Assembly (NCBI RefSeq): GCF_015840915.1
Contig: NZ_CP060398.1
Coordinates: 930,001-994,000, forward strand
Direction: 5' to 3'
From: Synechococcus sp. CBW1002
GTDB lineage: Bacteria > Cyanobacteriota > Cyanobacteriia > PCC-6307 > Cyanobiaceae
DNA length: 64,000 bases
The position numbers were made by a program, and so were the translations under genes. Below, in pieces: positions 1 to 27,043 of this stretch. Positions within the stretch are counted from its first letter, which is position 1; every line of letters begins with the position of its first letter. The notes beneath the pieces were generated by a model that worked only from the letters and a program-made list of their open reading frames with translations, did not search any database and was not told where the DNA came from.

Positions 1-497
1 ACGGCGATCGAGAAATTTCTGATTGGGAGACTACCAACGGGAGTGCGATCGATACGCCCGAAGAACAGGCCGCCTTCGGTGCCACGATCATCCGCAGCCC
101 CGACAACCTCACCTGGTCGGCTGATGGGTCAATCTATGTGCAGGAAGATCGCTCGGTGCCTGCGCCTTACTTCGCCCAGGAAGAGGCCTCGATCTGGAAG
201 GTGAGCCCCACCGAGACAGATTCCATCACGGGCCAGGCCTCCACTGAACGCTGGGCCCAGATCGATCGGACCGCAGTCCCTACCGACTACGGCCAGACCG
301 ACCCCAGCGCTACCGATCCGGGCAATTGGGAATCCTCCGGGATTCTTGATGTCTCCACCCTCTACAACCAGCTCCCCGGCACCAGTTTCCTGGCCGACGT
401 ACAGGCCCACAGCCTGCGCGACGGCAACATCGGCGAGAACGGCAACCTTGTGCAGGGTGGCCAGCTCAACCTGATCCAGGACACCGGCGTGCTCTGA
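1..497 (+). CDS. PhoX/DUF839-like phosphatase, C-terminal part
   Basis: Only the last ~164 codons are inside the window; the frame is open from base 3 with no start. The residues around 'SPDNLTWSADGSIYVQEDR' resemble the late beta-propeller blades of PhoX/DUF839-type secreted alkaline phosphatases or esterase-like phytase proteins, where a 'P(D/E)N(L/I)' motif precedes an acidic strand. Members of this family are periplasmic or secreted, metal-dependent phosphatases used under phosphate limitation. Family membership is inferred from this short C-terminal piece; the catalytic N-terminal half is not visible. A strong hairpin terminator follows 30 bases after the stop codon. Confidence 0.6.
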   Translation, partial: GDREISDWETTNGSAIDTPEEQAAFGATIIRSPDNLTWSADGSIYVQEDRSVPAPYFAQEEASIWKVSPTETDSITGQASTERWAQIDRTAVPTDYGQTDPSATDPGNWESSGILDVSTLYNQLPGTSFLADVQAHSLRDGNIGENGNLVQGGQLNLIQDTGVL

Positions 498-10920: not shown

Positions 10921-11117
10921 CCCAGTGGACCCGCAGTGATTCGGCCTATCTTATCTGTCCTGGAAAGATGTTCCAAGAACGGATGGATGCTTGATCAGGA
11001 TGCAGAGCCGGGTGCGGACATGCTGAATTGAAGCCACTGCATCAACCCCCAGGAAGACAGCCGGGGCCACCCAAGACGACCCACCGCCAACCATACCGCG
11101 GCCAACAAGAGATAACT

Positions 11118-11768
11118 TTAAGGCGGAATCTCTATATCCAGACGCCTGTGGTCTTCGAAGACACATGTCGTGTTCATTTTGAATCCCTGCTCAGGAAACC
11201 ATGCGAGATAGCGCCGATCACCTTTCTTCTCGTTCTCTGAAAGGTTTTTCTCGAACTTCTCTTCTGGCTTGTCGGCAAGAAACAGGTAAAGGCGATCATT
11301 GCGAATGATCCATGCGTTCAGGCTTACGGCTGGACCCAGGCAGTCACGTGCCCATACAAACTCCGGTTCGAATTCATTGGAGATTCCCCAGGAGCAGAAA
11401 CCGCCATTCCTGGGGATGAACCGGCTTGGCGACTCAGCGAAACGCCTCATGTTTTCGCTGTTATGAAAATAGTATGTATAGCCAAGATGAACGTGCCTAT
11501 AGGCCGGCTTGCCCCGCGCGGGAGGAGTGCCATCCGCACGGCCGAAAAAGGAAACGACATCGGCGCCACCCAGAACCGGATACGCCTTATTGGTGCAGTT
11601 GACGAGCGTTGGTATATGCGGACATTTGGGAATTTTAGATGCCGCGTAGAAGTTCGCCAGAAGAAATAGAAAGGTGGCCATGCCCGCCAAGCCTGCCAGC
11701 GCCTTGGCGAGACTATTGAAGGACTTTCGAGTCCCTGCGGGATGGCTCGCAGCAGCTGGAAGAGGCAT
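11118..11768 (-). CDS. YHS-domain protein with N-terminal membrane anchor
   Basis: 216 residues. A hydrophobic segment (about residues 27-44, 'LAGMATFLFLLANFYAA') is followed by a YHS domain: 'AYPVLGGADVVSFF', then 'YRHVHLGYTYYFHNSENMRRFAESPSRFIPRNGGFCSWGI'. YHS domains are often associated with metal-binding proteins. The C-terminus is charged and ends without a second domain. The gene looks AT-richer than its neighbours and separates fghA from adhC, so it may be a later arrival. Role unknown. Confidence 0.75.
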   Translation of the reverse strand: MPLPAAASHPAGTRKSFNSLAKALAGLAGMATFLFLLANFYAASKIPKCPHIPTLVNCTNKAYPVLGGADVVSFFGRADGTPPARGKPAYRHVHLGYTYYFHNSENMRRFAESPSRFIPRNGGFCSWGISNEFEPEFVWARDCLGPAVSLNAWIIRNDRLYLFLADKPEEKFEKNLSENEKKGDRRYLAWFPEQGFKMNTTCVFEDHRRLDIEIPP

Positions 11769-12062
11769 GGATGGGTGTTCAGTTGGTTGTCGGCTAGATG
11801 GCCATCCATCGATTCACCGGATCAGGCGTCGAATCTGTCGACAGCAATTCCGTGAGATCCCACTTTCAATCGATCCCCTTGTCTCCGCCTCGGCTGTCTT
11901 GCCGAAGAATCATCAGCATTAGGATTTTTCACATCATTCAATTTACCCTGCAATGGTTTTGCCTGCCTGAAGAGGACCCATCATTCGCCTGCCAGAACGA
12001 TGACCCTTCGGGTGAATACCCTTGGAGAGGCAATCGCCGGTCTGACGTCATGGTGCAGCCGA

Positions 12063-14628
<2,566 letters not shown>

Positions 14629-14716
14629 GCCTTCTGGGCTGAGGGTTCCAGTCTGCTGGGATCACCGCATGTGGTGGAACCGTCGATCAGCTCAGGGCAG
14701 GCGCGATACCCGTTGG

Positions 14717-14726
14717 GGCCGTTGCA
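14717..14726. repeat. Target-site duplication of the ISAs1-family element (left copy)
   Basis: CCGTTGCAGG lies immediately left of the IS and is repeated exactly at 15971-15980. An unmutated duplication indicates a fairly recent insertion. Confidence 0.9.
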
Positions 14727-15970
14727 GGCAAGGCTGATTCAAAGTGCGTCACAGTCGCTCTGGCGCCGGTGCTCCCCATGGGGTGAACTGAGCAGGCTTG
14801 CCCCTGCTTGGTGCCTGAAATCGCCTCTGCCGCAACCGATCTCGATCTGATCAACTACCTCAAGGCGATTCCGGACGCTCGCATGCGCCGGGGCGTGCGC
14901 TTTCCGGCTTGGTACCTCCTGCTGGTGGCGGTGCTGGGAATCCTCAGCCGCTGCCAGAGCTTGCGGGATCTGGAACGCTTTGCCCGCCGGCACCACGGTG
15001 CTCTCACCGAGGCGCTGGGCCAGGAGCTGCGGCGACCGCCATCGGATTCCTCCTTCCGCTACTTCTTCCTGCAGGTGGACGTGGCGGCCCTCTGCGCTGC
15101 GATCCGTGACTGGACAATCGCCCAGATCCCAGGTGGTGCAGCGGATCTCGACCAGTTGATCTGTGACGGCAAGACCCTGCGAGGCTCCATCGAGTCCACC
15201 GCCGGTGGCGGCTCGGCGTTCATTGCCCAGGTGACGCTTTACTCCGCCGCCCTGGGCGTGGCGATCAGCCAGGCCTGCTATGCCACCGGAGAAAACCACG
15301 AGCGAGCTGTGTTGCGCCAGCTTCTCGGTGAGCTTGATCTGGACGGCGTGCTCATCCAGGCGGATGCCCTGCATACGCAGAAGCCGTTTTTCGGCAGCTC
15401 CAGGAGCAGGGGGCCGACTTCCTCCTGACCGTCAAGGCCAACCAGAAGACGCTGCATCGCCAGATCCGGAGCCAGTTCCAAGGGAAGCGCAAGATCCCTT
15501 TCGTGGCAACGGATCACGAGATCAGCCACGGTCGGGAGATCACCTGGACCCTGCGGGCTAAAGAGGCCCCGGACCATATCCGTGAGGCCTGGGGCGGCAG
15601 CAGCTGGATCGTCGAGGTGGCGGCCACCGGCAGCCGCGAAGGCAAGCCCTTTCAGGCCACCCACCTGTTTCTTACCAGCCTGCGCACCACCCCAGTGGCC
15701 CTGCTGAAACTGGTGCGAGACCGCTGGAGCATTGAAGGCTGGCACTGGATTCGTGACACCCAGCTCCAGGAAGATGCTCACCGCTACCGCGGGAACGGCG
15801 CTGGGGCGATGGCCGCGCTGCGAACCCTGGCATTGAACCTGCTCAGGCTTGCGGGGTTTCCGTCGATCCGAGCTGGGATGCAGGCGGTGATGCACGACAT
15901 CACGGCGATGCTGAAGATGGCGCGGCGGCGGGCACTGCCCAACCCGTGCTGAAACTTTGAATCAGCCCTG
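14727..15970 (+). mobile_element. ISAs1-family insertion sequence
   Basis: A 1,244-bp element with 17-bp terminal inverted repeats: left CAAGGCTGATTCAAAGT (14727-14743), right CAGGGCTGATTCAAAGT read on the minus strand (15954-15970), one mismatch. It is flanked by an exact 10-bp direct repeat, CCGTTGCAGG, at 14717-14726 and 15971-15980. Terminal repeats, duplication length and transposase type fit the ISAs1 family. Its transposase is frameshifted, so it is probably immobile unless helped in trans. Confidence 0.92.
14808..15952 (+). pseudogene. ISAs1-family DDE transposase, one frameshift
   Basis: The first frame encodes the family N-terminus ('LKAIPDARMRRGVRFPAWYLLLVAVLGIL'), the first catalytic aspartate block ('LICDGKTLRGS') and the second ('LIQADALHTQKPFF'). 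It then runs into a stop at ~15428. The protein continues in the -1 frame from the TTTTT tract at 15387-15391: 'RQLQEQGADFLLTVKANQKTL' leads to the glutamate region ('IRDTQLQEDAHRYRGNGAGAMAALRTLALNLLR'). Loss of one T from a six-T run explains it. A programmed slip is less likely, because the tract is not a good slippery heptamer (its first base is G) and ISAs1 elements are not known to use one. Confidence 0.88.
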
Positions 15971-15980
15971 CCGTTGCAGG
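15971..15980. repeat. Target-site duplication of the ISAs1-family element (right copy)
   Basis: Exact second copy of CCGTTGCAGG directly after the right terminal repeat. Confidence 0.9.
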
Positions 15981-16223
15981 AGTGCTGCTGAGTGGCAGAT
16001 GCTTGTCCGCCGCGGTGTCAGTCGACAGATTGACGTCCCAGGCCTGGAGTAGTTCAGCGCGTAGCGTCCGCTCGAACTCGCCGGCTTCAGCCGGGTACTG
16101 GCTGCGATGCGCGATCAGGGTGGTACTCAATTCAGCCCAACGGCGGGGTGTCAAGATGTCAGGCAGAAGGGGTTGCCCAGCCCAAGGACTGCGAGGGAAC
16201 AAGGTCGCGAAAGATTCAAAACC

Positions 16224-17132
16224 TCAGCACCATCTTGATCGTTCAGCTGGAGCTGGCTTGGTCAGCCTGCCAAATCTACAAACCAGTTCATCGCCTACAG
16301 CAACAGCGGAAGCTTTTCGACCATGCATGACCCTTGTATTGTCAATCACAACCATTTCTTTAGGGGCCAGAGTCAAGATATGCATGCATCGCTGATGCGC
16401 CTTGATGATCTCCACCAATTCTCTATCAGCAAATGGCCCTCCCCCACCCCAGGAAATGCCATTGCTTGCATGGCAATAGATTTGGCCAGCATTATCGACA
16501 CCAGCCGGTAATGATGCAAGATGGGCGAGCATGCCATTGGCAAAAGCTTCACGGCCTGAAGACCAGGAGCGACGCAGCGGGGATTGACGCCAAAGAAGAC
16601 TCAGAATTTCCCCTTTCCATTGATAGGACAGTTGAGGGCAAGTGCTCAATAACATCTCAAGATCATCTCGATGATCAAGCCCGAATTCAGATTGCCACCG
16701 CTCCTTTCCCCACTCCATCTCGTAGACAACTCCCTCACGTCGCAGTCGCATCTCCAGGCTGCTCGGCAAATGCCAAAGCATGCTTTCTCCATCAACCAAT
16801 GTGAGTTGGCCACCAAGGTGGACTGGTATGGATCGGAGTGCAGCAAAGATACAGAGATCAGGCATGGGCAGAATTGGACGATATGCACGCTCAGAATGTC
16901 CAAGCACTTCCTTTTGCCCGCAGGGAGCATGATGCAGAGTGCCCCCTGGAAAGGGAGCCTGATAAACTTGCCTGCCGATACTGGGAAGCACCTCAAGGGA
17001 AAGCTGTTCCGAAAGTTTTCGAAGTCCAGTAATGCCCCCATGGGGAGCAGGCACCAATGCCCATCCGCGCTCTTGCAACGACTCCATCACAAAGCGAGTC
17101 AGTCTCTGACTATTAAAAACAGACGGATTCAC
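16224..17132 (-). CDS. TauD/SyrP-like Fe(II)/2-oxoglutarate-dependent oxygenase
   Basis: A 302-residue protein of the TauD/clavaminate-synthase superfamily, starting at GTG. The facial triad is visible as 'LGHSERAY' (His79, Glu81: the HxE form used by clavaminate synthase and SyrP-type enzymes rather than HxD) and 'VVIDNTRVMHGRKA' (His270, with Arg272 for 2-oxoglutarate). 'VHLGGQLTLVDG' between them is the typical core strand. Such enzymes hydroxylate, desaturate, halogenate or rearrange amino-acid-like substrates. It is the last gene of a four-gene AT-rich operon, three bases after the P450 stop, so it probably acts on the same product. Confidence 0.8.
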   Translation of the reverse strand: MNPSVFNSQRLTRFVMESLQERGWALVPAPHGGITGLRKLSEQLSLEVLPSIGRQVYQAPFPGGTLHHAPCGQKEVLGHSERAYRPILPMPDLCIFAALRSIPVHLGGQLTLVDGESMLWHLPSSLEMRLRREGVVYEMEWGKERWQSEFGLDHRDDLEMLLSTCPQLSYQWKGEILSLLWRQSPLRRSWSSGREAFANGMLAHLASLPAGVDNAGQIYCHASNGISWGGGGPFADRELVEIIKAHQRCMHILTLAPKEMVVIDNTRVMHGRKASAVAVGDELVCRFGRLTKPAPAERSRWC

Positions 17133-17135
17133 AGC

Positions 17136-18344
17136 TCACGCACCAACCAGCACAGGCAAGGACTGCAGAGATCGGATAAAGCTATTCCGGGACCAGACAA
17201 CTTCCCCTGAAATGCGAGCTCTAGGGAAGTGCTGGAGAAAAGCCTGCACAGCAACCTCGGCTTCCATGACAGCAAGATGTCTCCCAAGACAATGGTAGCT
17301 GCCGCGACCAAACGCAAGATGCGGATTAGGGAATCGATCAATCTGGAATGTGTCGGCATCAGTGAATATCTTTTCGTCTCGATTTGCGGAGCCAAGGATG
17401 ACCGAGACTTGATCACCGGATACGAAGCGATGCGCTCCGATGGCTACCTCATCGATAGCCATGCGGAAGGTCGAGCGCTGAAGGGGAGCTTCAAAACGCA
17501 GAGTCTCATCAACTGCTCCCTTGATAAGACCAGGGTTGGCATGGAGCAAGCCAAGTTGATCTGGATTGCTCAACAATAAGTTCAGACAACTACCAATTAA
17601 AGCAATTGTGGTTTCATGCCCAGCAAACATCAGCAGCATCAACATCGCAGCTGCCTCGTTGCCAGCAAGAAGATGAGCCTCTTGAGCATCTAGCAATGCC
17701 TCTAGCAAGGAATCCTCACGCGGTCGCCATGCGCCCTTGAGCCCCGCTTGAAACAATTGCTGAAGTTGGCGGAAAGCCAAAGCTTTGGCCGCGAGTGAAC
17801 TATCGTTGACGGCAAGATCATCAGAGGCGGCTGTAATCCTACGCGAAAGGTCTCGAAGGAGTGGTATTTCTTCCTGTGGCAGCCCAATGAGACGAGCAAT
17901 AACAGAGAGAGGCAGCAGCTCCGCATAAGCTGGAACAAGATCGATCACGGAATTGAGTTCCACAACCTCTAGCAGCTCAATGGAGCTACACCTCACAACT
18001 TCTGCATAGGAAGAAACGGGTTTCCCTCGGAAGAAGCCCTCGACCAAATGGCGCAATCGCTTGTGATCAGGATCATCCTGAAACAACATGCTGTCATCAA
18101 ATCCTGCCTCAGCTTCCTCACCCTTTGCATCTGCACTGCGTTTGCTGAAGTGAACAGTATCCGCAAGCACCGCCTGAGCTTGAGCATAAGTACTGAGCAG
18201 CCATTTCCCTTGAGCTCGATTAGCCTCACCAGGATGATGGGGGATAAAGAGCGGCTGGTCAAGCCTTCTCATCTCTGCATACACAGCATATGGGTCATTC
18301 ACCAAAGCACTCAATAGAGAGTGCGAAGACCAGGATCTCTGCAT
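17136..18344 (-). CDS. Cytochrome P450
   Basis: A soluble bacterial-type P450 of 402 residues when started at the ATG at 18344; a longer frame to 18575 would run through the preceding gene and adds nothing conserved. Hallmarks are the I-helix oxygen-binding motif 'FAGHETT' (about residues 240-246), the K-helix 'ETLR' (E280-R283) and the heme loop 'HLAFGRGSYHCLGRHLA' with the axial Cys352. All key residues are present. The redox partner is not encoded nearby; cellular ferredoxin would be expected. It lies between the hot-dog-like gene (26 bases away) and the iron oxygenase (3 bases away), implying a shared tailoring role. Confidence 0.93.
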   Translation of the reverse strand: MQRSWSSHSLLSALVNDPYAVYAEMRRLDQPLFIPHHPGEANRAQGKWLLSTYAQAQAVLADTVHFSKRSADAKGEEAEAGFDDSMLFQDDPDHKRLRHLVEGFFRGKPVSSYAEVVRCSSIELLEVVELNSVIDLVPAYAELLPLSVIARLIGLPQEEIPLLRDLSRRITAASDDLAVNDSSLAAKALAFRQLQQLFQAGLKGAWRPREDSLLEALLDAQEAHLLAGNEAAAMLMLLMFAGHETTIALIGSCLNLLLSNPDQLGLLHANPGLIKGAVDETLRFEAPLQRSTFRMAIDEVAIGAHRFVSGDQVSVILGSANRDEKIFTDADTFQIDRFPNPHLAFGRGSYHCLGRHLAVMEAEVAVQAFLQHFPRARISGEVVWSRNSFIRSLQSLPVLVGA

Positions 18345-18370
18345 GTTGCTTTCCAAGCCTAGATTGAATT

Positions 18371-18865
18371 CTAACAACGGAATCCTCCTCGCTGCTCCAA
18401 CAAGAAGAGACCGTCGCCAGAATCGCGAACCGTAAATCGTGCATGGATATAGGCCATGCCACCGATAACCCGAAACGACTTGCACTTCATGTCGACACGG
18501 ATGTTCTGCCGTGAGCGGATCGGCCTGCGTAGAGAGCATCTGCACTCGCGCATCCATGCTTCCTGGGCCTTGCAAGGCAATTCAAGTTTTTTGAACAACC
18601 AGAAAAGACTGAGCTCTGCGCAGAACTCCTGCGAACTGAACACTGAAAGATGAAAGCCTCCTGGATCTGTTGACGAGGAGAAAGGATTGAGAATATCCAC
18701 CATGGCTTGAAGGATCTCGCCATCAATGCTCACTTGCTGAATACACCATTGCTCCTTAGCTTTACCGCCATGCAGATAAGCCGACTGATACGGCTCCAAG
18801 TCATTCGGATAGAATTGCTTGGCTGCTGAGCTAGTTTCTATCATCTTCCTATTCTCGGCCACCAT
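18371..18865 (-). CDS. Probable hot-dog-fold protein (FcoT/dehydratase-like)
   Basis: 164 residues with no strong named match. The second half reads as a hot-dog fold: a long helix ('SQEFCAELSLFWLFKKLELP'), then 'RRPIRSRQNIRVDMKCKSFRVIGGMAYIHARFTVRDSGDGLFLLEQRGGF'. This has the 'F+.P......i..' strand order and the closing 'a.f.v.d..g' strand of acyl-thioesterases such as mycobacterial FcoT. A role on a thioester or carrier-bound acyl intermediate is inferred only. The start is either the ATG at 18865 (overlapping the upstream stop by 17 bases) or the ATG at 18844, four bases past that stop; both imply coupling to the ATP-grasp gene. Confidence 0.6.
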   Translation of the reverse strand: MVAENRKMIETSSAAKQFYPNDLEPYQSAYLHGGKAKEQWCIQQVSIDGEILQAMVDILNPFSSSTDPGGFHLSVFSSQEFCAELSLFWLFKKLELPCKAQEAWMRECRCSLRRPIRSRQNIRVDMKCKSFRVIGGMAYIHARFTVRDSGDGLFLLEQRGGFRC

Positions 18866-20699
18866 TTACAAAATATTCAAGCAGGGCTTCAAGTGTATCA
18901 GTGCGATGACAGGAATGGCACATCTGCTTCAGCGTTGACCACAGCTTCCCTTCCGGTTGGAGGGATTGGCTCTGCCCATTGCATAGATTGTCAGCACTCG
19001 TGCAAACAATGAGTTTGTCGAAGCGATCAATGGGCAACCCATCCACGGCCAAAGAGTCATGCCAAGGCGCCAAGATTAGATGTCGTAGATGCTGGCAGCC
19101 AAGCAGCATAGATGTTGCCAGAAACTGATCCTCAGGCGGCCCACTCAAGCACTCATCATCAAGGAAGACGCCATCCTGGCCCACCAAGCCAATACCACCA
19201 GAATCGCCCTGCCGGCGACGTCGGTCAAGGCTGTCCTTCAAAGGCAACACACTCTCAAATCCTAGCACAACATCAATGGGGATACGTCCATCCCCTCCGA
19301 GTAATTTATTTAGGAGTACATCGTGTCCAGTTGCTATTTGAGGCTGAGCATTCACCTCGCAGATGATGCCACCTGTCTGCAACCATGATTCACTGATATC
19401 AGGGAGCAGAAGATCTACACCCGCAAGGTCAAGATGTAAGGCCTCTGCTGCTCGAATTGCGAGGCGGAGATTATCGGGATGAGCACTGTCAAGAGCAGGA
19501 ACAATCTCACCTCCGCGGGAGATGTTTGCAGCCCCACGAAGATAAACAGTATCCCCATCAGTTGGGATGCTCGCCGGGGTGAGCCCCTGATAGGCCAACA
19601 TCCGCTTGGCCTCCAGATCAAGCTCAATCGGCATGCGTTGTCCACCCTGACTGCCAACGACTTTCGCAATCTCGAGATTCTTAAGACTTAAGAGCTCAAG
19701 AATGGTACTTTTACCATCACCCCTGACAAATCCAGGGCGACGCTCAACCACTCTGAATATTGAGCCTTGATGAACATGAACCCGATAGTCACGACTTGAA
19801 TAGTATCTTTCAACCAAGACTTGATGACTGCGCGCAAAAATCGCATTAGCGGCTTCTCTGACTTCTTCCTCACTGGATAACCTCACGTGGACTTCCAGGC
19901 CCCCATCAGCATTTCGGGGCTTGAGGACAACAGGCAAACCAAACTGACTCGCGAGTTGCCAGGCATGGTCCACTGATCTGGCCACTTCGCCCTCAACGAC
20001 TGGCAGGCCAGCGTCACGGAGAATATTTTTTGTAAAGAGCTTGTCTTTCGAGGCATTGCAGCCGATGGCGCTGTCAAATTGCGTTACAGAACTATCCATA
20101 AGAATTGAAGTGAAGCCCCATCCATATCTGTGCAATCTGCCGGTGATTCGTTTTGTCGGAATGTTCATCGCTTGAGCTGCCGCAAGCAAGCGCAAGGAGT
20201 TGACTCCTTGCGGGAGGCTCTCCTGCATATCTTTTTTGCATTTGAACAATCTTGCAGGGATTTGAGCTGTTTCCTGGCGATCCTCCTGGTTCAAAGATAA
20301 AATAGTGCATAATCGCAACAATTCCAAGGCTGGCCTCCACGTGTATTCACTTGCGGGAAGTATTAGCAAATAGGAATCGACACCTCGAAGCGCTCGGCCC
20401 CTTGGAATAGCCCTTGAGGGCAGGCCTATGTTCCGCTGGGTTGCGTCAGCTATTGCCAGGAATACTCTTCCGGCTGGATCGCAAGTTTCGACAGAAATAT
20501 TGCGAAGGCTATTTTCGTATTCAGAGCTCGTGATCTGAAGTGTGGACAGACACAGATCCTTTACTGTTGCCAGCCTGTTCATTCCTATCTTAAAGTACCT
20601 TGCCAGCTCCCACTTAATCCATAGAGAATAAGGCTCAATACCCGGTAGAAACCCGCGCTGAACGCGCAAGAGCTTGAGACAGTGTGCAGCTTTGACCAT
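18849..20699 (-). CDS. CphA-like ATP-grasp ligase with degenerate Mur-ligase tail
   Basis: 616 residues. The middle (about 200-455) is an ATP-grasp domain closest to that of cyanophycin synthetase: 'DSAIGCNASKDKLFTKNILRDAGLPVVEGEV' (cf. CphA 'Q(D)K..T..LL..AG(V/I)PVP'), 'GLPVVLKPRNADGGLEV', 'VLVERYYSSRDYRVHV', 'FVRGDGKSTI', and the metal site 'GGIICEVNAQPQ'. Residues ~500-575 ('GLVGQDGVFLDDECLSGP...GLPIDRFDKLIVCTSADN') align by eye with the start of CphA's Mur-ligase half. The P-loop 'GTNGKTT' and all later Mur sequence are missing, so only one peptide- or amide-forming active site remains. I use the ATG at 20699; a TTG at 20714 would add five residues. It heads the operon. Confidence 0.8.
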   Translation of the reverse strand: MVKAAHCLKLLRVQRGFLPGIEPYSLWIKWELARYFKIGMNRLATVKDLCLSTLQITSSEYENSLRNISVETCDPAGRVFLAIADATQRNIGLPSRAIPRGRALRGVDSYLLILPASEYTWRPALELLRLCTILSLNQEDRQETAQIPARLFKCKKDMQESLPQGVNSLRLLAAAQAMNIPTKRITGRLHRYGWGFTSILMDSSVTQFDSAIGCNASKDKLFTKNILRDAGLPVVEGEVARSVDHAWQLASQFGLPVVLKPRNADGGLEVHVRLSSEEEVREAANAIFARSHQVLVERYYSSRDYRVHVHQGSIFRVVERRPGFVRGDGKSTILELLSLKNLEIAKVVGSQGGQRMPIELDLEAKRMLAYQGLTPASIPTDGDTVYLRGAANISRGGEIVPALDSAHPDNLRLAIRAAEALHLDLAGVDLLLPDISESWLQTGGIICEVNAQPQIATGHDVLLNKLLGGDGRIPIDVVLGFESVLPLKDSLDRRRRQGDSGGIGLVGQDGVFLDDECLSGPPEDQFLATSMLLGCQHLRHLILAPWHDSLAVDGLPIDRFDKLIVCTSADNLCNGQSQSLQPEGKLWSTLKQMCHSCHRTDTLEALLEYFVNGGRE

Positions 20700-20786
20700 A
20701 AACTTCAATCGCAATCAAGCCTACACAAAAGCATCTCTTGCGAAGATATAAAGAGGCTAGCATGCAATATTGATGAATAATTTGCC

Positions 20787-20823
20787 CAGAACAAGCCCCG
20801 CATGTCTGGCAGGGCCTGCTCTG
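20787..20823 (-). terminator. Probable transcription terminator hairpin after tkt
   Basis: CAGAGCAGGCCC pairs with GGGCTTGTTCTG on the minus strand (12 bp including two G-U pairs, about 12-base loop). No clean T-run follows, so it may be a weak terminator or processing hairpin. It lies between tkt and the AT-rich operon. Confidence 0.5.
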
Positions 20824-20860
20824 GGACAGGGTGGCGTCTCAGTATGTGCTTCTCAACGGA

Positions 20861-22867
20861 TCAGCCCAGAGCCTTGGCCTTGGCCACCACGTTGTCCACG
20901 GTGAAACCGAACTTCTCCAGACACACAGGACCAGGAGCCGAGGCACCGAAGCGGTCGATCGAGACAGTGTCGCCATCGAGGCCCACGACTTTGTGCCAGC
21001 CGAAGGAGCTGGAGGCTTCCACAACCAGACGCTTGCGCACGGCCGCCGGCAGCACGCTGTCGCGATAGGCGGCGTCCTGCTCCTCAAACAGTTCCACGCA
21101 GGGCATCGACACAACGCGCACGTTCTTGCCGTCGGCGCGCAGCTGGGCAGCGGCCTTGGTGCAGAGCTCAAGCTCGGTGCCGGAGCCGATCAGGATCAGC
21201 TCGGGGGTGCCGTTGCTGTCTTCCAGGATGTATCCACCCCTAGCCACAGCGGCGGCGCTGGAGTTGGCCTGGTTGGCCATGGCCTGCCGGCTGAGGGCCA
21301 GCACGGTGGGGCGCTTGCGGTTGGTCACCGCCACCTGATAAGCGCCGCTGGTTTCATTGCCATCACCAGGGCGGATCACCAGCAGGTTGGGGATCGAGCG
21401 CAGGCTGGCCAGGGTCTCCACGGGCTGATGGGTGGGGCCGTCTTCGCCGAGGCCGATCGAATCGTGGGTCAGCACGTAGATCACACCCAGTTCACTGAGG
21501 GCCGAAAGGCGCATGGCGCCCACCATGTACCCCGCAAACACCAGGAAGGTGCCGCCATAGGGGATCAGGCCACTGCCGTGATAGGCGATGCCATTGAGGA
21601 TCGCAGCCATGGCGTGCTCGCGCACACCGAAGTGGAGGTAGCGATTAGCTTCGCCGCCCTTCTGAAAGCTGGCCTCACCCTTGATGTCGGTGAGGTTGGA
21701 GTGGGTCAGGTCGGCGGAACCGCCGATCAGCTCGGGCAGGGCAGGGCCGATGGCGTTGAGGCAGTTGTAGGAGTGCTGCCGGGTGGCCAGACCCTTGTCC
21801 GTCGCGGCGTAGGCGGGCAGCTTGGCGTCCCAGCCCTGGGGCAGTTCACCGCGCAGCATCCGCTCGAACTCGGCGGCTTCAGCCGGGTACTGGCTGCGAT
21901 AGGCGCTCAGGTTGGCGGTCCACTTGGCTTCGGCGGCTTCACCGCGGCTGATCGCCTGGCGCCAGTGGTCGTAGGCCTCCTGAGGCACTTCGAAAGCGCC
22001 GTAGCTCCAGTCAAGAGCCTTGCGGGTCAGCTCGGCCTCGTCGGCGCCGAGGGCTGCGCCGTGAACCCCGGCGGTGTTGGCCTTGTTGGGAGAGCCGTAG
22101 CCGATCGTGGTGGTCACCTTGATCATCGACGGCTTGTCGGTGACCGCCTTGGCCTCTTCGATGGCCCTGGCGATGGCGGCCACATCCGTGTTGCCGTCGG
22201 GCACATGAATCACATGCCAGCCATAGGCTTCATAGCGCTTCAGCACATCCTCGGTGAACGACACCGCAGTGTTGCCATCGATGGTGATGTGATTGTCGTC
22301 GTAGAGAGCAATCAGCTTGCCCAGGCCCAGGTGGCCGGCCAGGGAGGCGGCTTCGCTGCTGACGCCCTCCTGATGGCAGCCATCACCCATGATCACGTAG
22401 GTGGTGTGATCAACGAGCGTGCAGCCGGGCTTGTTGAACTTGGCGGCCATGTGAGCTTCGGCGATCGCCAGGCCCACCGCATTGGAAATGCCCTGACCCA
22501 GGGGTCCGGTGGTGACTTCAACCCCGGGGGTCTCGAAGGTTTCAGGGTGGCCCGGAGTCTTGGAGCCCCATTGGCGAAACTGCTTGATGTCGTCGAGGCT
22601 CACTGAGTCGTAGCCGGTGAGGTGCAGCAGCGCGTACAGCAGCATGCAGCCGTGGCCGGCCGACAGCACGAAGCGATCCCGGTTGAACCATTTCGGATTC
22701 CGGGGGTTGTGCTTCAGCACCTTGTCCCACAGGGCGAAGGCCATCGGCGCGCAGCCCATGGGCAGGCCGGGGTGGCCCGAGTTGGACTTGTTGATCGCGT
22801 CGACCGCAAGGAAGCGGATGCTGTTGATGCAGAGACTTTCGACCGACGTGGGGGTGGCGACGACCAT
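20861..22867 (-). CDS. tkt: Transketolase
   Basis: A thiamine-diphosphate enzyme of the Calvin-Benson and pentose-phosphate cycles that moves two-carbon units between sugar phosphates. 668 residues, typical length. The start ATG at 22867 gives the conserved '[30 protein letters not shown]'. The ThDP/metal motif is '[40 protein letters not shown]', and '[18 protein letters not shown]' holds the catalytic glutamate. '[19 protein letters not shown]' closes the active site. It is 61 bases from fabF and on the same strand. A mid-gene fragment of a second copy lies at 14676-16126. Confidence 0.98.
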
Positions 22868-22928
22868 GGGTGGCAGCAAAGGGGTAAGGGGTAGAGGAGT
22901 CCGTGGGCCGGGCCCGGGAGAGCCGGGA

Positions 22929-24179
22929 TCAGCGCATCCGACGGAAGGCGAGACAGACGTTGTGACCACCGAAACCGAAGGAATTGGAGAGCACCACGTT
23001 CAGCTTCTGTTCCCTGGCCTGATTGGGAACGACATCCAGATCACAGGCCGGATCCGGATTTTGGTAGTTGATCGTAGGGGGTACGAGGTCGTGGCCAATC
23101 GCCAGCACCGCCGCCACGGCCTCGATGCCACCGCTGCCGCCGAGAAGGTGGCCGGTCATCGACTTGGTGGAGCTCACCGGAATCCGGTAGGCATGATCAC
23201 CGAGGGCCGCCTTGATGGCCGATGTCTCGTTGCTGTCGTTGGCCTGGGTGCTGGTGCCGTGGGCGTTGACGTAGTCGACCTGCTCGGGTTCGAGGCCCGC
23301 ATCGCGCAGGGCCAGCCGCATCGCCTCAGCGCCTCCAACGCCTCCCGGAGATGGGGAGGTGATGTGATGGGCATCGCAGGTCATGCCGTACCCCACAACC
23401 TCGGCCAGGATTTCAGCATCGCGGGCCCTGGCGTGTTCCAGGCTCTCCAGGACCAGAATTCCCGATCCTTCTCCGATCACGAAACCGTTGCGCTCGGCGT
23501 CGAAGGGGCGACTGGCAGTAGCGGGATCATCGTTGCGGAACGAAAGCGCCTTGGCGCTGGCAAAGCCAGCCACACCCAGGGGCGTGATCGCCGATTCGGC
23601 ACCACCGCAGATCATCACGTCCGCCAGACCCATCTGGATCAGGCGGTAGGCATCGCCGATGGCGTTGGAGCCGGCGGCGCAGGCCGTGGCCACGGCGGTG
23701 CTCGGTCCCTTGGCGCCGAGGGCGATCGCCGCGAGGCCGGTGGCCATGTTGGGGATCATCATCGGCACGCAGAAGGGACTGACCCGATCCGGCCCGCGAT
23801 CCTTGAGCACGTGCGCCTGGGTCTCCATCATCAGCAGGCCGCCCACGCCGGAGCCGATCGCAACGCCGACGCGGTGCTGATTGCTCTCGTCGACCACGAG
23901 GCCGGCATGGCCGACGGCCTGTTTGGCCGCCACAACACCGAACTGGCAGAACCGGTCCCAGCGCTTGGCTTCCTTGGGCTCCAGCCAACCCTTGGAATCG
24001 AAGTTCTTGACTTCCGCAGCAAAGCGGCAGGCATGGCGCGCCGCATCGAACAGGGTGATCGGTGCCACCCCATTACGTGCAGCGCTCAACCCTTCCCAGT
24101 ATTGGGAAACGTCATTTCCGATCGGTGTGACCGCGCCGAGACCTGTGACGACGACGCGGTGGAATCCCTCCACCATCAA
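22929..24179 (-). CDS. fabF: 3-oxoacyl-[acyl-carrier-protein] synthase II
   Basis: Condenses malonyl-ACP with acyl-ACP in fatty-acid elongation. 416 residues with the Cys-His-His triad: '[15 protein letters not shown]' (Cys167), '[14 protein letters not shown]' and '[18 protein letters not shown]'. The C-terminal '[18 protein letters not shown]' is the usual FabF ending. Either of two adjacent ATGs may start it. It follows acpP by only five bases, the common acpP-fabF pairing, so substrate carrier and condensing enzyme are co-transcribed. Confidence 0.98.
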
Positions 24180-24184
24180 TCGCC

Positions 24185-24427
24185 TCAGGCTTGCTTGTCC
24201 AGGATGTACTTGACGGCATCGCCGACCGTGGTGATGCCTTCGGCAGCCTCGTCGGGAATCTCGATGTCAAAGGCCTCTTCCAGGGCCATGACCAGCTCGA
24301 CGGTATCGAGCGAGTCGGCGCCCAGATCGTTCTGGAAGTTGGATTCGGGCTTCACCTCGCCGGCGTCGACGCTGAGCTGCTCGGCAACGATCGAACGGAC
24401 TTTCTCGAAGATCGCTTCCTGGGACAT
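24185..24427 (-). CDS. acpP: Acyl carrier protein
   Basis: An 80-residue acidic four-helix carrier. The phosphopantetheine attachment serine is in '[17 protein letters not shown]'. The ATG at 24427 gives the standard start '[18 protein letters not shown]'; an upstream ATG at 24451 would add eight unconserved residues. It is the first gene of the acpP-fabF pair, divergent from psaC. Confidence 0.98.
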
Positions 24428-24468
24428 GGCCGCTGGGGAGGGAGGCCGCATCCTACGGGTCGCCCTGA

Positions 24469-24837
<369 letters not shown>

Positions 24838-24841
24838 ATTG

Positions 24842-24865
24842 GAGCTGAACAGCCAGCTTCAGCTC
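24842..24865 (+). terminator. Hairpin just downstream of psaC
   Basis: GAGCTGAA (24842-24849) pairs with TTCAGCTC (24858-24865) around an eight-base loop, starting five bases after the psaC stop. There is no T-run, so it may act as an mRNA-stabilising 3' hairpin rather than a terminator. Confidence 0.45.
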
Positions 24866-24975
24866 AGCGACCAATCAGCTTGTCGCAGTGCGGCAGAGAG
24901 AGGGCCTTCCTGAGGGAATGCGGTCTCCATGCTACTGCCGCAAGCCATCTGAAAGAATCGGCTCCCAATAAGCTC

Positions 24976-25003
24976 AGCTCGGCCCACCGCCGGGCTTTTT
25001 TTT
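24976..25003 (+). terminator. Strong Rho-independent terminator upstream of glmS
   Basis: AGCTCGGC pairs with GCCGGGCT (one G-U pair) around CCACC and is followed by eight T residues (24996-25003). It ends only 24 bases before the glmS ATG, so transcription entering from psaC or from an unannotated short RNA would stop here and leave little room for a separate glmS promoter. Confidence 0.85.
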
Positions 25004-25027
25004 GCCCTTCCCGCTGCAGACGCCCCT

Positions 25028-27043
25028 ATGTGCGGCATCGTTGCCCTGATCGGATCGCGGGAGGTGGCTCCCCAGCTGCTGGAAGGGCTGCGACAGCTGG
25101 AATACCGCGGCTATGACTCGGCCGGCATCGCCACTGTGGAGGCGCTCTCCGTAGACGCGGCCGCGGTGAATGCCGGCTGCGTGGATGGCGCCACATCCTC
25201 GGATGTGCCCAGCACGAAAGGCCTGCTGCACTGCCTCCGGGCTGAGGGGAAGCTGGTCAATCTCACAGCCCGTTACGAGGCCGATGGGGCCCCGGGCCAC
25301 TGCGGCATCGGCCACACCCGCTGGGCCACCCATGGCAAGCCGGAGGAGCGCAACGCCCATCCCCATCTCGATGGCAGCGGCCGTCTGGCGGTGGTCCAGA
25401 ACGGCATCATCGAGAACCATCGCAGCCTCCGGGAGGAGCTTCAAGCTGGCGGCGTTGTGTTCCGTTCCGACACCGACACCGAGGTGATTCCCCACCTTGT
25501 GGCGAGGCGACTGGCGGAACTCCGCCAGCAGGGCCGCCGCATCGGTGGGCGGCTGTTGCTCGAGGCGGTGCAGGACGTGCTGCCGCTGCTGCAGGGCGCC
25601 TATGCCCTTGCCCTGGTCTGGGCCGAGGCTCCTGGGGCCCTGGTGGTGGCCCGGCGGGCCGCGCCGCTGCTGATCGGCCTGGGCGAGGGGGAATTCCTCT
25701 GCGCCAGCGACACCCCAGCCCTGGCCGGATTCACCCGCACGATCCTGCCGCTTGAGGATGGCGAGGTGGCGCTGCTGACACCCCTGGGCATTGAGCTCTA
25801 CGACGCCCAGGGGGAGCGGGTGGAACGCACCCCATCGCTGCTGAGCGGCACCGAGCACGTGGCCGACAAGCGCAGCTTCCGCCACTTCATGCTCAAGGAG
25901 ATCCATGAACAACCGGAAACAGCGGCCCTGTGGGTGGCCCGGCACCTGCCGCACCCCAGGCCAGAGTCTCAGGACGATGGCGGCGGGGCGGGGCCCGGTG
26001 CCGATGGGCTGGCCCTTGTGGCCCTACCGCTGGATGAGGTGGTCTATGAGGAGGTGGAGCGGATCCAGATCCTGGCCTGCGGCACCAGCCGCCATGCCGC
26101 CCAGGTGGGAGCCCACCTGCTGGAGCAGCTGGCCGGCATCCCCACCAGCGTCTATTACGCCAGCGAATTTCGGTATGCACCGCCGCCGTTGGTCCCCCAC
26201 ACGCTCACGATCGGGGTGACCCAGTCCGGCGAGACGGCGGACACCCTGGCGGCCCTGGCGATGGAGCGGGACCGGCGCCGGCTGGTGGCCGATCCGGCCT
26301 ATGCCCCGAAGCTGCTGGGCATCACCAACCGTCCGGAGAGCTCCTTGGGCCGTCTGGTGCCCCACATCCTCGACATCGGCGCCGGCATCGAAGTGGGGGT
26401 GGCGGCCACCAAGACCTTCCTCGGCCAGCTGCTGGCCTTCTATGGGCTGGCGCTGGCCTTCGCGGAGCGCCGTGGCGGCGGTCGGGCCGGCTGCCCCCCG
26501 GAACGGCTGCGGTCCCTGGCGAAAGACCTGCGCCAGATCCCGGCCCTGCTCCAGGACCTCGTGAACGACCACGACCGCCGCTGTGAGGAGCTGGCCCACC
26601 TGTTCGCCGACACCCAGGACGTGATCTTCCTGGGCCGGGGCATCAACTACCCGATCGCGCTGGAGGGTGCCCTGAAACTCAAGGAGATCAGCTACATCCA
26701 TGCCGAGGGCTATCCGGCCGGCGAGATGAAGCATGGCCCGATTGCCCTGCTCGATGCCCGGGTGCCTGTGGTGTCGATCGCCATGCCCGGCCCGGTGTTC
26801 GAGAAGGTGCTCAGCAATGCCCAGGAGGCCAAGGCCCGCGATGCCCAGTTGATCGGCGTGGCTCCTGAAGGCCCGGACACCACCCTGTTCGACCAGTTGC
26901 TGCCCATGCCAGAGGTGGAGGAGATGCTCAGCCCCCTGCTCACCGTGATCCCGATGCAGCTGCTCAGTTATCACATCGCTGCCCACCGGGGCCTGGACGT
27001 GGATCAGCCGCGCAATCTGGCCAAGAGCGTCACGGTGGAATAA
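25028..27043 (+). CDS. glmS: Glutamine-fructose-6-phosphate aminotransferase (isomerizing)
   Basis: Makes glucosamine-6-phosphate, the entry to peptidoglycan and amino-sugar synthesis. The N-terminal glutaminase begins 'MCGIVALIGS' with Cys2 (Cys1 of the mature enzyme), then 'LEYRGYDSAGIA' and 'GIGHTRWATHG'. Two SIS sugar-isomerase domains follow ('ILACGTSRHAAQVGA', 'GVTQSGETADTLAAL', 'VGVAATKTFLGQLLAFYG', 'FLGRGINYPIALEGALKLKEISYIHAEGYPAGEMKHGP'). The C-terminus 'DQPRNLAKSVTVE' is intact. At 671 residues it is ~60 longer than E. coli GlmS because of insertions after residue ~40 and before the first SIS domain. Confidence 0.97.
   Translation: MCGIVALIGSREVAPQLLEGLRQLEYRGYDSAGIATVEALSVDAAAVNAGCVDGATSSDVPSTKGLLHCLRAEGKLVNLTARYEADGAPGHCGIGHTRWATHGKPEERNAHPHLDGSGRLAVVQNGIIENHRSLREELQAGGVVFRSDTDTEVIPHLVARRLAELRQQGRRIGGRLLLEAVQDVLPLLQGAYALALVWAEAPGALVVARRAAPLLIGLGEGEFLCASDTPALAGFTRTILPLEDGEVALLTPLGIELYDAQGERVERTPSLLSGTEHVADKRSFRHFMLKEIHEQPETAALWVARHLPHPRPESQDDGGGAGPGADGLALVALPLDEVVYEEVERIQILACGTSRHAAQVGAHLLEQLAGIPTSVYYASEFRYAPPPLVPHTLTIGVTQSGETADTLAALAMERDRRRLVADPAYAPKLLGITNRPESSLGRLVPHILDIGAGIEVGVAATKTFLGQLLAFYGLALAFAERRGGGRAGCPPERLRSLAKDLRQIPALLQDLVNDHDRRCEELAHLFADTQDVIFLGRGINYPIALEGALKLKEISYIHAEGYPAGEMKHGPIALLDARVPVVSIAMPGPVFEKVLSNAQEAKARDAQLIGVAPEGPDTTLFDQLLPMPEVEEMLSPLLTVIPMQLLSYHIAAHRGLDVDQPRNLAKSVTVE

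Follow-up and report, generated by a model that had tools for sequence, protein, structure and literature searches.

We have analysed a stretch of 64,000 nucleotides from Synechococcus sp. CBW1002 (G000:C1:930001-994000, hereafter the window, within a 3.85-Mb single-contig genome). At positions 16224-20699, on the minus strand, the window holds four co-directional genes in the order ATP-grasp, hot-dog-like, P450 and TauD-type. The first (18849..20699, -) encodes a short cyanophycin synthetase (CphA)-like ATP-grasp ligase of 616 aa, identified by TIGR02068, PRK14016 and PDB CphA1 matches, a residue map, a phylogenetic tree and its orthologues. The second (18371..18865, -) encodes a hot-dog-like protein of 164 aa, a probable acyl-thioester enzyme according to a low-confidence AlphaFold2 (AF2) model, fold matches and orthologues. 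The third (-; 17136..18377 with a TTG start, or from ATG 18344) encodes a cytochrome P450, recognized by PF00067, a PDB match and its invariant residues, and the fourth (16224..17132, -, GTG start) a TauD/clavaminate-synthase-like Fe(II)/2-oxoglutarate oxygenase of the HxE type, assigned by PF02668, profile matches and alignment. The ATP-grasp and hot-dog-like genes overlap by 17 bp, 3 bases separate the P450 and TauD-type genes, and the remaining junction is a small overlap if TTG 18377 is the P450 start or a 26-base gap if it is ATG 18344. What is new here is that the ATP-grasp protein is, as judged from alignment and tree, a CphA relative with a decayed Mur-ligase half that belongs to a clade of its own, and that it goes with a second, larger CphA-like ligase, LG, encoded outside the window.

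An initial annotation of this DNA had described four minus-strand genes with small gaps or overlaps and a G+C content below that of either flank. Both points are borne out by the positions of the open reading frames (ORFs) and by base composition, which is 50.9% for 16224-20699 vs 62.3% (11001-16000) and 65.5% (20862-25861) in the flanks. It had also stated that genes for nonribosomal peptide synthetases (NRPS) or polyketide synthases (PKS) were missing, and none is found in the operon.

Recurrence, spread and selection of the four-gene set

The same four genes appear in the same order at three other loci (L013, L014 and L015), and the contig of a further one, L019, begins inside the ATP-grasp gene and holds the end of that gene and the last three. 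The search for this gene order elsewhere, a check put forward in the initial annotation, found the homologues co-located in L013, L014, L015 and L019. When the TauD-type protein was used as query, matches were obtained in 7 of the 399 genomes of the order, and the window's own genome, G116, G167 and G339 hold all four genes in order. The neighbourhoods of two weak matches (G059 and G374) were searched and the four-gene set was absent from them; G350 gave a further weak match. The hot-dog profile matched 4 of the 399 genomes at E 0.001, identical to the four operon carriers, and a class-wide hot-dog search recovered the window's own genome alone (1/388). The hot-dog alignment was also run against the species-genome collection, in a scan that looks for two peptide patterns and is limited to rather close relatives; it gave four loci, the three already seen plus L019. 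The carriers were a metagenome-assembled genome (MAG) of Synechococcus sp. UW140, a MAG from Lake Pavin, Synechococcus sp. 1G10 and the Umea MAG that holds L019. Identity to the window genes is 36-49% for the ATP-grasp protein, 52-60% for the hot-dog-like protein (47-58% in a separate comparison with the four other loci), 48-58% for the P450 and 40-47% for the TauD-type protein.

Values of dN/dS were 0.07-0.34 across 11 pairs among L013, L015, L019 and, for LG only, L030; the window operon and L014 were left out because they are too divergent. The tested pairs are under purifying selection.

Elsewhere the operon is likewise AT-rich: its G+C content is 53-55% in each of the four other hosts, whose flanks (a single one for L019) reach 66-70%. 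Its chromosomal neighbours differ: tkt in the window, lepA in L014 and the photolyase gene in L013 and L015. In the window, the right neighbour is tkt (transketolase, by Pfam). The sister species G273 can be aligned over 20859-24847 with 94.5% DNA identity, and since this alignment breaks off at the end of tkt on the operon side, where G273 has thiC, the operon lies at a synteny break. The order kept in five genomes, the AT-rich composition in all of them and the break at tkt indicate that the four genes are a conserved operon that is probably moving horizontally, in line with the horizontal acquisition proposed initially. Neither the plasmid collection (tblastn with the hot-dog protein) nor the viral contigs yielded a match; these collections thus lend no support to an origin from a plasmid or phage.

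The ATP-grasp ligase, a decayed relative of cyanophycin synthetase

The ATP-grasp protein matches TIGR02068 with 224.9 bits (cut-off 850), PRK14016 with 236.4 bits and several ATP-grasp families of Pfam, and the PDB CphA1 structure 7lgm matches it with E 7.2e-46; its CphA-like nature, already noticed in the initial annotation, is supported by the TIGR02068 and PDB matches. It consists of an N domain without the primer-cleavage motif, a complete G domain and a vestigial Mur-ligase part without P-loop. Residues were mapped in a 40-protein alignment, with the canonical CphA1 L076, whose residues carry the published TeCphA1 numbers, as reference. In TeCphA1, K220 and K261 bind ATP, R309 the acyl phosphate, R323 and N394 the aspartate beta-carboxylate and R458 the alpha-carboxylate (PMC9427784). 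K220, K261, R309, R323, N394, S396 and E450 are conserved in all four aligned operon rows, and K220, K260, R306 and E448 are the window counterparts of K220, K261, R309 and E450, the set that serves ATP and the acyl phosphate. On the other hand, H267 in the P-loop of the G domain is replaced by Gly (Gly266 in the window) and R458 by Ala or Ser (Ala456 in the window) in the four rows, none of which has GKT at the positions aligned with the M-domain P-loop GTNGKT or retains the N-domain Cx19HxxEH primer motif. From these residues, the operon ligase should still be able to activate a carboxylate as acyl phosphate for coupling to an amine, and its acceptor is probably other than aspartate.

In the G-domain tree the operon rows form one clade (support 100/99), whose sister (99/95) consists of the short ligases L053-L055, from G145, G064 and G069. 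The CphA1, CphA2-like and LG rows form clades separate from that of the operon ligase; the six CphA2-like rows, labelled so by size and TIGR02068 score and not by annotation, group with support 100/100. The tree tool issued a long-branch warning, which concerns other parts of this tree.

LG, the second CphA-like ligase

LG (853 aa, G000:C1:1029652-1032210) adjoins a photolyase gene. In L013, L015 and L019 it is found downstream of the TauD gene in the same orientation, with a spacing of 182 bp in L013 and 253-310 bp, depending on the start, in L019. Its distribution was evaluated in 80 genomes, namely all 14 with any ligase match and 66 others. LG was found in 4/4 operon genomes: it is complete in three (G000, G116 and G339), and in G167 a single reading frame covers 686 of 858 positions and then breaks. 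Only 2 of the other 76 surveyed genomes have it, both with the sister ligase, and there LG ends 3 bp upstream of that ligase; the third sister-ligase genome, G069, retains an LG remnant. None of the 73 surveyed genomes that lack this ligase clade has LG. Other matches in the survey were the canonical CphA1 of G185 (396 bits), short ligases and one 111-residue piece in G167. Fisher exact tests, whose values ignore relatedness, gave 9.5e-6 for operon vs LG and 3e-10 for ligase clade vs LG with the remnant counted. Two of the genera, g1 and g8, also include surveyed genomes with neither operon nor LG (G273 and nine g8 genomes, respectively).

LG scores 495-500 bits with TIGR02068 vs the cut-off of 850. 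It retains the aspartate residues N394, R323, S396 and R458 of CphA1, and its M-domain P-loop is kept as GS[VLI]GKT. Cyanophycinase (TIGR02069) was found in none of the four operon genomes and in 1 of the 9 genomes searched overall, G185 alone; because it was not found in the four carriers, ordinary cyanophycin storage is unlikely there.

The P450, the iron oxygenase and the hot-dog-like protein

The P450 matches PF00067 with 91.6 bits (cut-off 22.8), and E291 and R294 (ExxR), the heme-thiolate C363, AGHETT and the E255-T256 pair of the I helix are invariant in the four aligned orthologues. Its best PDB match is BioI (3ejb, E 4.9e-56), and the next ones, with E 9e-52 to 5e-49, include the macrolide hydroxylase PikC. 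The TauD-type protein matches PF02668 with 33.4 bits (cut-off 27). The HxE oxygenase named in the initial annotation is indeed present, its Fe triad H79-x-E81/H270 being invariant in the four orthologues. An Arg after the distal His is expected to bind 2-oxoglutarate; the window protein has one at H+16 (R286), which may stand in for the Arg replaced by Asp281 (see below) and is Cys in L014, and the AF2 model of this protein has a predicted local distance difference test (pLDDT) score of 39.5. Its profile matches are TauD-type proteins, PvcB (E 0.0019), L-lysine 3-hydroxylase, clavaminate synthase and asparagine oxygenase; because they include amino-acid hydroxylases, it is plausible that the iron enzyme acts on an amino-acid-like substrate. 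The statement that all key catalytic residues are present in the operon holds for the P450, the Fe triad and most ATP-grasp residues; it is only partly right, with Asp281 in place of an Arg in the TauD-type protein, discussed below, and H267 and R458 of the ligase lost.

As for the 164-aa hot-dog-like protein, no Pfam family matched above cut-off, a HadA match of NCBIfam (E 0.08) was below cut-off, and a PDB profile search returned only two chance-level matches, both to MCM10 (E 0.45). Its AF2 model (pLDDT 62) contains a helix at 75-94 plus strands. The structural matches obtained with VIA-align were headed by fragments of Vps13 (Z 5.9) and Atg2 (Z 5.6), followed by SAV606 (5wsy, 5wsx; Z 5.3-5.4 over 118-124 residues), tied with the FabZ/FabA dehydratases (Z ~5); according to the tool, even models lacking a clear match typically reach Z 7-8, which none of these does. 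The initial annotation had seen a likeness to FcoT and isonitrile clusters. This has no support in sequence, as PF10862 (FcoT) gave no match up to E 5 in five hot-dog orthologues; in the structure comparison SAV606, which we take to be FcoT-like, is tied with FabZ/FabA and unrelated folds. A search for FcoT in cyanobacteria found 1/194, a sub-cut-off fragment with stops. An FcoT-like identity is unproven.

Chromosomal setting of the operon

Between the tkt stop and the start of the operon lies an AT-rich leader (20700..20860, -); the alignment with the sister species G273 ends at 20859. No riboswitch was detected, nothing in Rfam having matched at the gathering score. A transketolase relic of ~150 bp (15970..16119, -) lies beyond the opposite end of the operon, with 81-83% identity to the tkt genes of the host and the sister species; it is about equally far from both, which are themselves 94.5% identical in the tkt blocks. 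The relic may be an insertion scar, a fragment of donor DNA that arrived together with the operon or the remains of an old duplication. Also beside the operon stands a transposase gene (DDE_Tnp_1-associated; 14808..15952, +) with an interrupted frame: PF13808 matches 14808-15428 with 59.6 bits, and the open frame at 15503-15952 was assigned to the gene by position alone.

Other CphA-like ligase modules

CphA-like ligases, short or long, occur in at least 14 of the 399 genomes at E 1e-20, with the top three candidates per genome scored. Clustering of ORFs produced many antisense frames and was used only to link named neighbours (L029-L056, L031-L057, L053-L055 and the methyltransferases of L058-L060 and L063). 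A second ligase-oxygenase pairing is present in the window's own genome: at L029:6399-9245 (G000:C1:2658398-2661244) a short CphA-like ligase is convergent with an aKG-HExxH-type beta-hydroxylase (TIGR04267, E 8.3e-30), and the same pairing is seen at L056:7220-10156, whose hydroxylase is a BLAST relative of that of L029. The window's own genome also has, at L031:4172-6897 (G000:C1:1042172-1044897), a short CphA-like ligase with a 4-bp overlap with a Methyltransf_24 gene (Pfam), a candidate for a further two-gene biosynthetic unit; its counterpart is L057:7552-10262, with a related methyltransferase by BLAST. Methyltransferase neighbours are supported by Pfam in L031 and L058, fall below cut-off in L060 and are BLAST relatives in L057, L059 and L063.

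At L053 a phosphodiesterase-like gene (just below the Pfam cut-off), a glycosyltransferase gene and LG are found, with relatives in L055. A 609-aa CphA-like ATP-grasp gene adjoins a free-standing Mur ligase (Mur_ligase_M and C) at L062:5109-8462, as if the halves of a cyanophycin synthetase had been split into separate genes, and at L058:8978-10294 a DUF3326 gene (266 bits) lies among methyltransferase genes, between short and long CphA-like ligases. CphA-like modules adjoin the photolyase gene in five loci (L013, L015, L030, L058 and L063). This interval, which in L013 and L063 is bounded at its opposite end by a DegT aminotransferase gene, holds different ligase modules in different genomes and is a probable insertion hotspot.

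Discussion

The reading that we favour, with slightly better than even confidence, is that the four genes, as a transferable operon of freshwater picocyanobacteria, and LG form one biosynthetic system, an NRPS-free two-ligase pathway leading to an oxidised, possibly acylated isopeptide or short oligomer. LG would probably add an Asp-like unit to a carboxylate, because the aspartate-acceptor residues known from cyanophycin synthetase are conserved in its G domain, and may alter the side chain of that unit through its changed Mur-ligase domain. With ATP, the short operon ligase would convert a carboxylate into an acyl phosphate and then join it to an amine, the acceptor being gripped via a beta-side carboxylate, with the grip on the alpha-carboxylate gone. 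The P450 and the HxE iron/2-oxoglutarate enzyme would then hydroxylate or desaturate the product or a building block, and the hot-dog protein would probably supply, dehydrate or release the acyl group of a coenzyme A (CoA) or acyl carrier protein (ACP) thioester. The outcome could be a small oxidised isopeptide or oligomer made without NRPS, PKS or ribosomal precursor. The initial annotation, whose interpretation is partly supported, had predicted an amino-acid-derived or acyl-peptide product; it had not seen LG, outside the window, whose co-occurrence with the operon shifts the likely product to cyanophycin-type isopeptide chemistry. A ribosomally synthesized peptide of the graspetide type was set aside by inspection, given that the ligase is CphA-like and that the genes are too closely spaced for a precursor gene to fit inside the operon.

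Several observations weigh against this proposal. LG lies ~79 kb from the operon in the window genome and on another contig in G116; the survey that links both scored up to 11 candidates per genome, and the LG-bearing genomes belong to four genera, a kinship to which the Fisher tests are blind. Position D585 of LG is Asn, and Ala in the sister system, so the Mur-ligase site may be inactive; D585 was reportedly mutated jointly with H586 to inactivate the M domain (PMC9262961). As to the short ligase, the CphA1 of G185 (L061) also lacks H267 (Gln) and the N-domain motif, which makes R458 and the P-loop the telling losses. The TauD-type protein of the window has Asp281 where the three other intact orthologues have an Arg (H270+11), and the hot-dog fold of the 164-aa protein, likely as it is, comes from a low-confidence model. 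We infer co-transcription of the four genes from their spacing alone: no promoter consensus was found on the minus strand ahead of the first gene, nor a terminator-like site right after the last one, and the counts of promoter-like and terminator-like sites in the region are within ~1.3 standard deviations of shuffles. Five loci are known in total, three of them from MAGs, and the selection test covered copies other than that of the window. The L015 copy, from a MAG, has a frameshift in the TauD gene, a broken LG frame and a lost stop codon in the ATP-grasp gene, which may reflect a decaying copy or assembly errors. Finally, all the substrates, the order of the steps, the acyl step and the product are inferred.

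Other explanations can be offered for the same genes. Modified cyanophycin metabolism, with the short ligase as a CphA2-like dipeptide polymerase and LG as a cyanophycin synthetase, so that an oxygenase-decorated storage polymer is made or recycled, seems unlikely to us. As in CphA2, which lacks the Mur P-loop and Cx19HxxEH (PMC9427784, PMC9262961), the short ligase has lost its M-domain P-loop and N-domain motif. R458 is lost in the CphA2-like rows too, and LG holds N394, R323, S396 and R458 for aspartate. However, the operon ligases stand outside the CphA2-like clade, cyanophycinase was not found in 4/4 operon genomes and 4/5 others searched, LG stays far below the TIGR02068 cut-off and has D585 changed, and we know of no need of a storage polymer for a P450 or a hot-dog enzyme. 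There is an equally small chance that an acyl or lipid precursor is the substrate, with the hot-dog protein and the P450 acting on a fatty acyl chain to give an N-acyl amino acid, an amide signal or a siderophore-like compound. Hot-dog folds mostly act on acyl thioesters, and BioI, a P450 acting on acyl-ACP, heads the PDB matches of the operon's P450; yet BioI is just modestly ahead of other P450s such as PikC, the operon contains no acyl carrier or acyl-activating gene, and the co-occurrence with LG indicates amino-acid chemistry.

We consider quite improbable an NRPS-free isonitrile-type pathway, in which the isonitrile would come from the iron enzyme, the hot-dog protein, of FcoT/SAV606 type, would attach an amino acid to an enoyl thioester and the ATP-grasp protein would replace the NRPS for amide formation. 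In its favour, SAV606 ranks high among the structural matches of the hot-dog model, and PvcB, which we take to be an isonitrile-pathway oxygenase, is one of the profile matches of the iron enzyme. Against this, none of the five orthologues has an FcoT Pfam match, FabZ/FabA tie with SAV606 and the Vps13/Atg2 fragments rank higher on a model of modest pLDDT, no acyl-ACP ligase or ACP gene is found inside the operon at any locus, and the co-occurrence of LG is left unexplained. The analogy is further weakened because the iron enzyme is HxE, vs the HxD of the ScoE type, and its profile matches extend to TauD-type proteins and amino-acid hydroxylases besides PvcB. That the genes merely share an AT-rich island through their transfer history, with no joint pathway, we hold to be very improbable: the low G+C, the transposase and tkt relic alongside and the differing chromosomal neighbours would fit, but the order is fixed, with overlaps or few-base gaps in the window, and recurs in the other genomes at 36-60% identity, the tested pairs are under purifying selection and the hot-dog gene was not found without the other operon genes in 399 genomes.

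Relatives of cyanophycin synthetase are usually viewed as storage-polymer enzymes. The evidence presented here suggests that some of them have been repurposed in freshwater picocyanobacteria, together with oxygenases, into compact biosynthetic operons, which genome mining based on NRPS and PKS would probably miss. The pattern of neighbours described above supports, without proving it, a role of CphA descendants as exchangeable ligase modules. A broader and more tentative extension, possible rather than probable in our opinion, is that in freshwater picocyanobacteria a decayed and a full-length CphA descendant constitute a general two-ligase chassis for small molecules, with swappable tailoring cassettes at sites like the photolyase locus (P450, iron oxygenase and hot-dog protein here; phosphodiesterase and glycosyltransferase, methyltransferase or HExxH hydroxylase elsewhere), the operon being a member of an undescribed NRPS-independent isopeptide class. 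If the pathway proposed for the operon is confirmed, it would add a new way of making oxidised isopeptides and an example of how a polymer synthetase evolves into small-molecule ligases. With 4.5 kb of operon and one partner gene, reconstitution in vitro is realistic, and one of the bearers is Synechococcus sp. 1G10, of which a culture may exist.

Comparison with known systems

A literature search (open-access full text, titles and the starts of abstracts) retrieved no description of this gene combination and no matching named pathway. The closest well-known enzyme is CphA1 (TIGR02068; 7lg5, 7lgm, 7wac), with which the N and G domains of the operon ligase align (query 161-597 to 7lg5) and share the residues for ATP, acyl phosphate and the aspartate beta-carboxylate. 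In contrast, the operon ligase reaches 225 bits vs 850, has lost His267, Arg458, the M-domain P-loop and Cx19HxxEH, belongs to a separate clade and is encoded beside oxygenase genes in a genome where no cyanophycinase was found. The operon ligase resembles CphA2 in size (~620 aa), in its degenerate Mur part and in the loss of the N-domain motif and R458, although the motif loss alone does not discriminate, being shared with the CphA1 of G185; it differs in lying outside the CphA2-like clade and, again, in that cyanophycinase was not found.

Isonitrile lipopeptide clusters (ScoA-E, Rv0097-0101) comprise an HxD-type ScoE oxygenase, an acyl-ACP ligase, an ACP and an NRPS. The operon has in common with them a probable hot-dog fold paired with a TauD-type oxygenase, and departs from them in its HxE motif and the missing FcoT sequence match; genes for an acyl-ACP ligase, ACP or NRPS were absent from the operon, in a search confined to the operon loci. 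In the dapdiamide, bacilysin and tabtoxin clusters an amide bond is made without NRPS by an ATP-grasp ligase, with an Fe/2-oxoglutarate oxygenase in dapdiamide; to our knowledge, their ligases are not CphA-derived and are accompanied by neither a hot-dog gene nor a CphA-like partner. Peptide ligation by an ATP-grasp enzyme together with tailoring is already known, and the operon is a variant of it, which shares the NRPS-free ATP-grasp amide bond and differs in a CphA-derived ligase accompanied by a hot-dog protein and a CphA-like partner. The nearest relatives are the sister ligase systems, in which a short ligase stands with LG, a phosphodiesterase-like gene and a glycosyltransferase gene (L053 and L055) or with an LG remnant (L054): their clade is joined to that of the operon ligase (99/95) and they have the same LG partner, with other neighbour genes.

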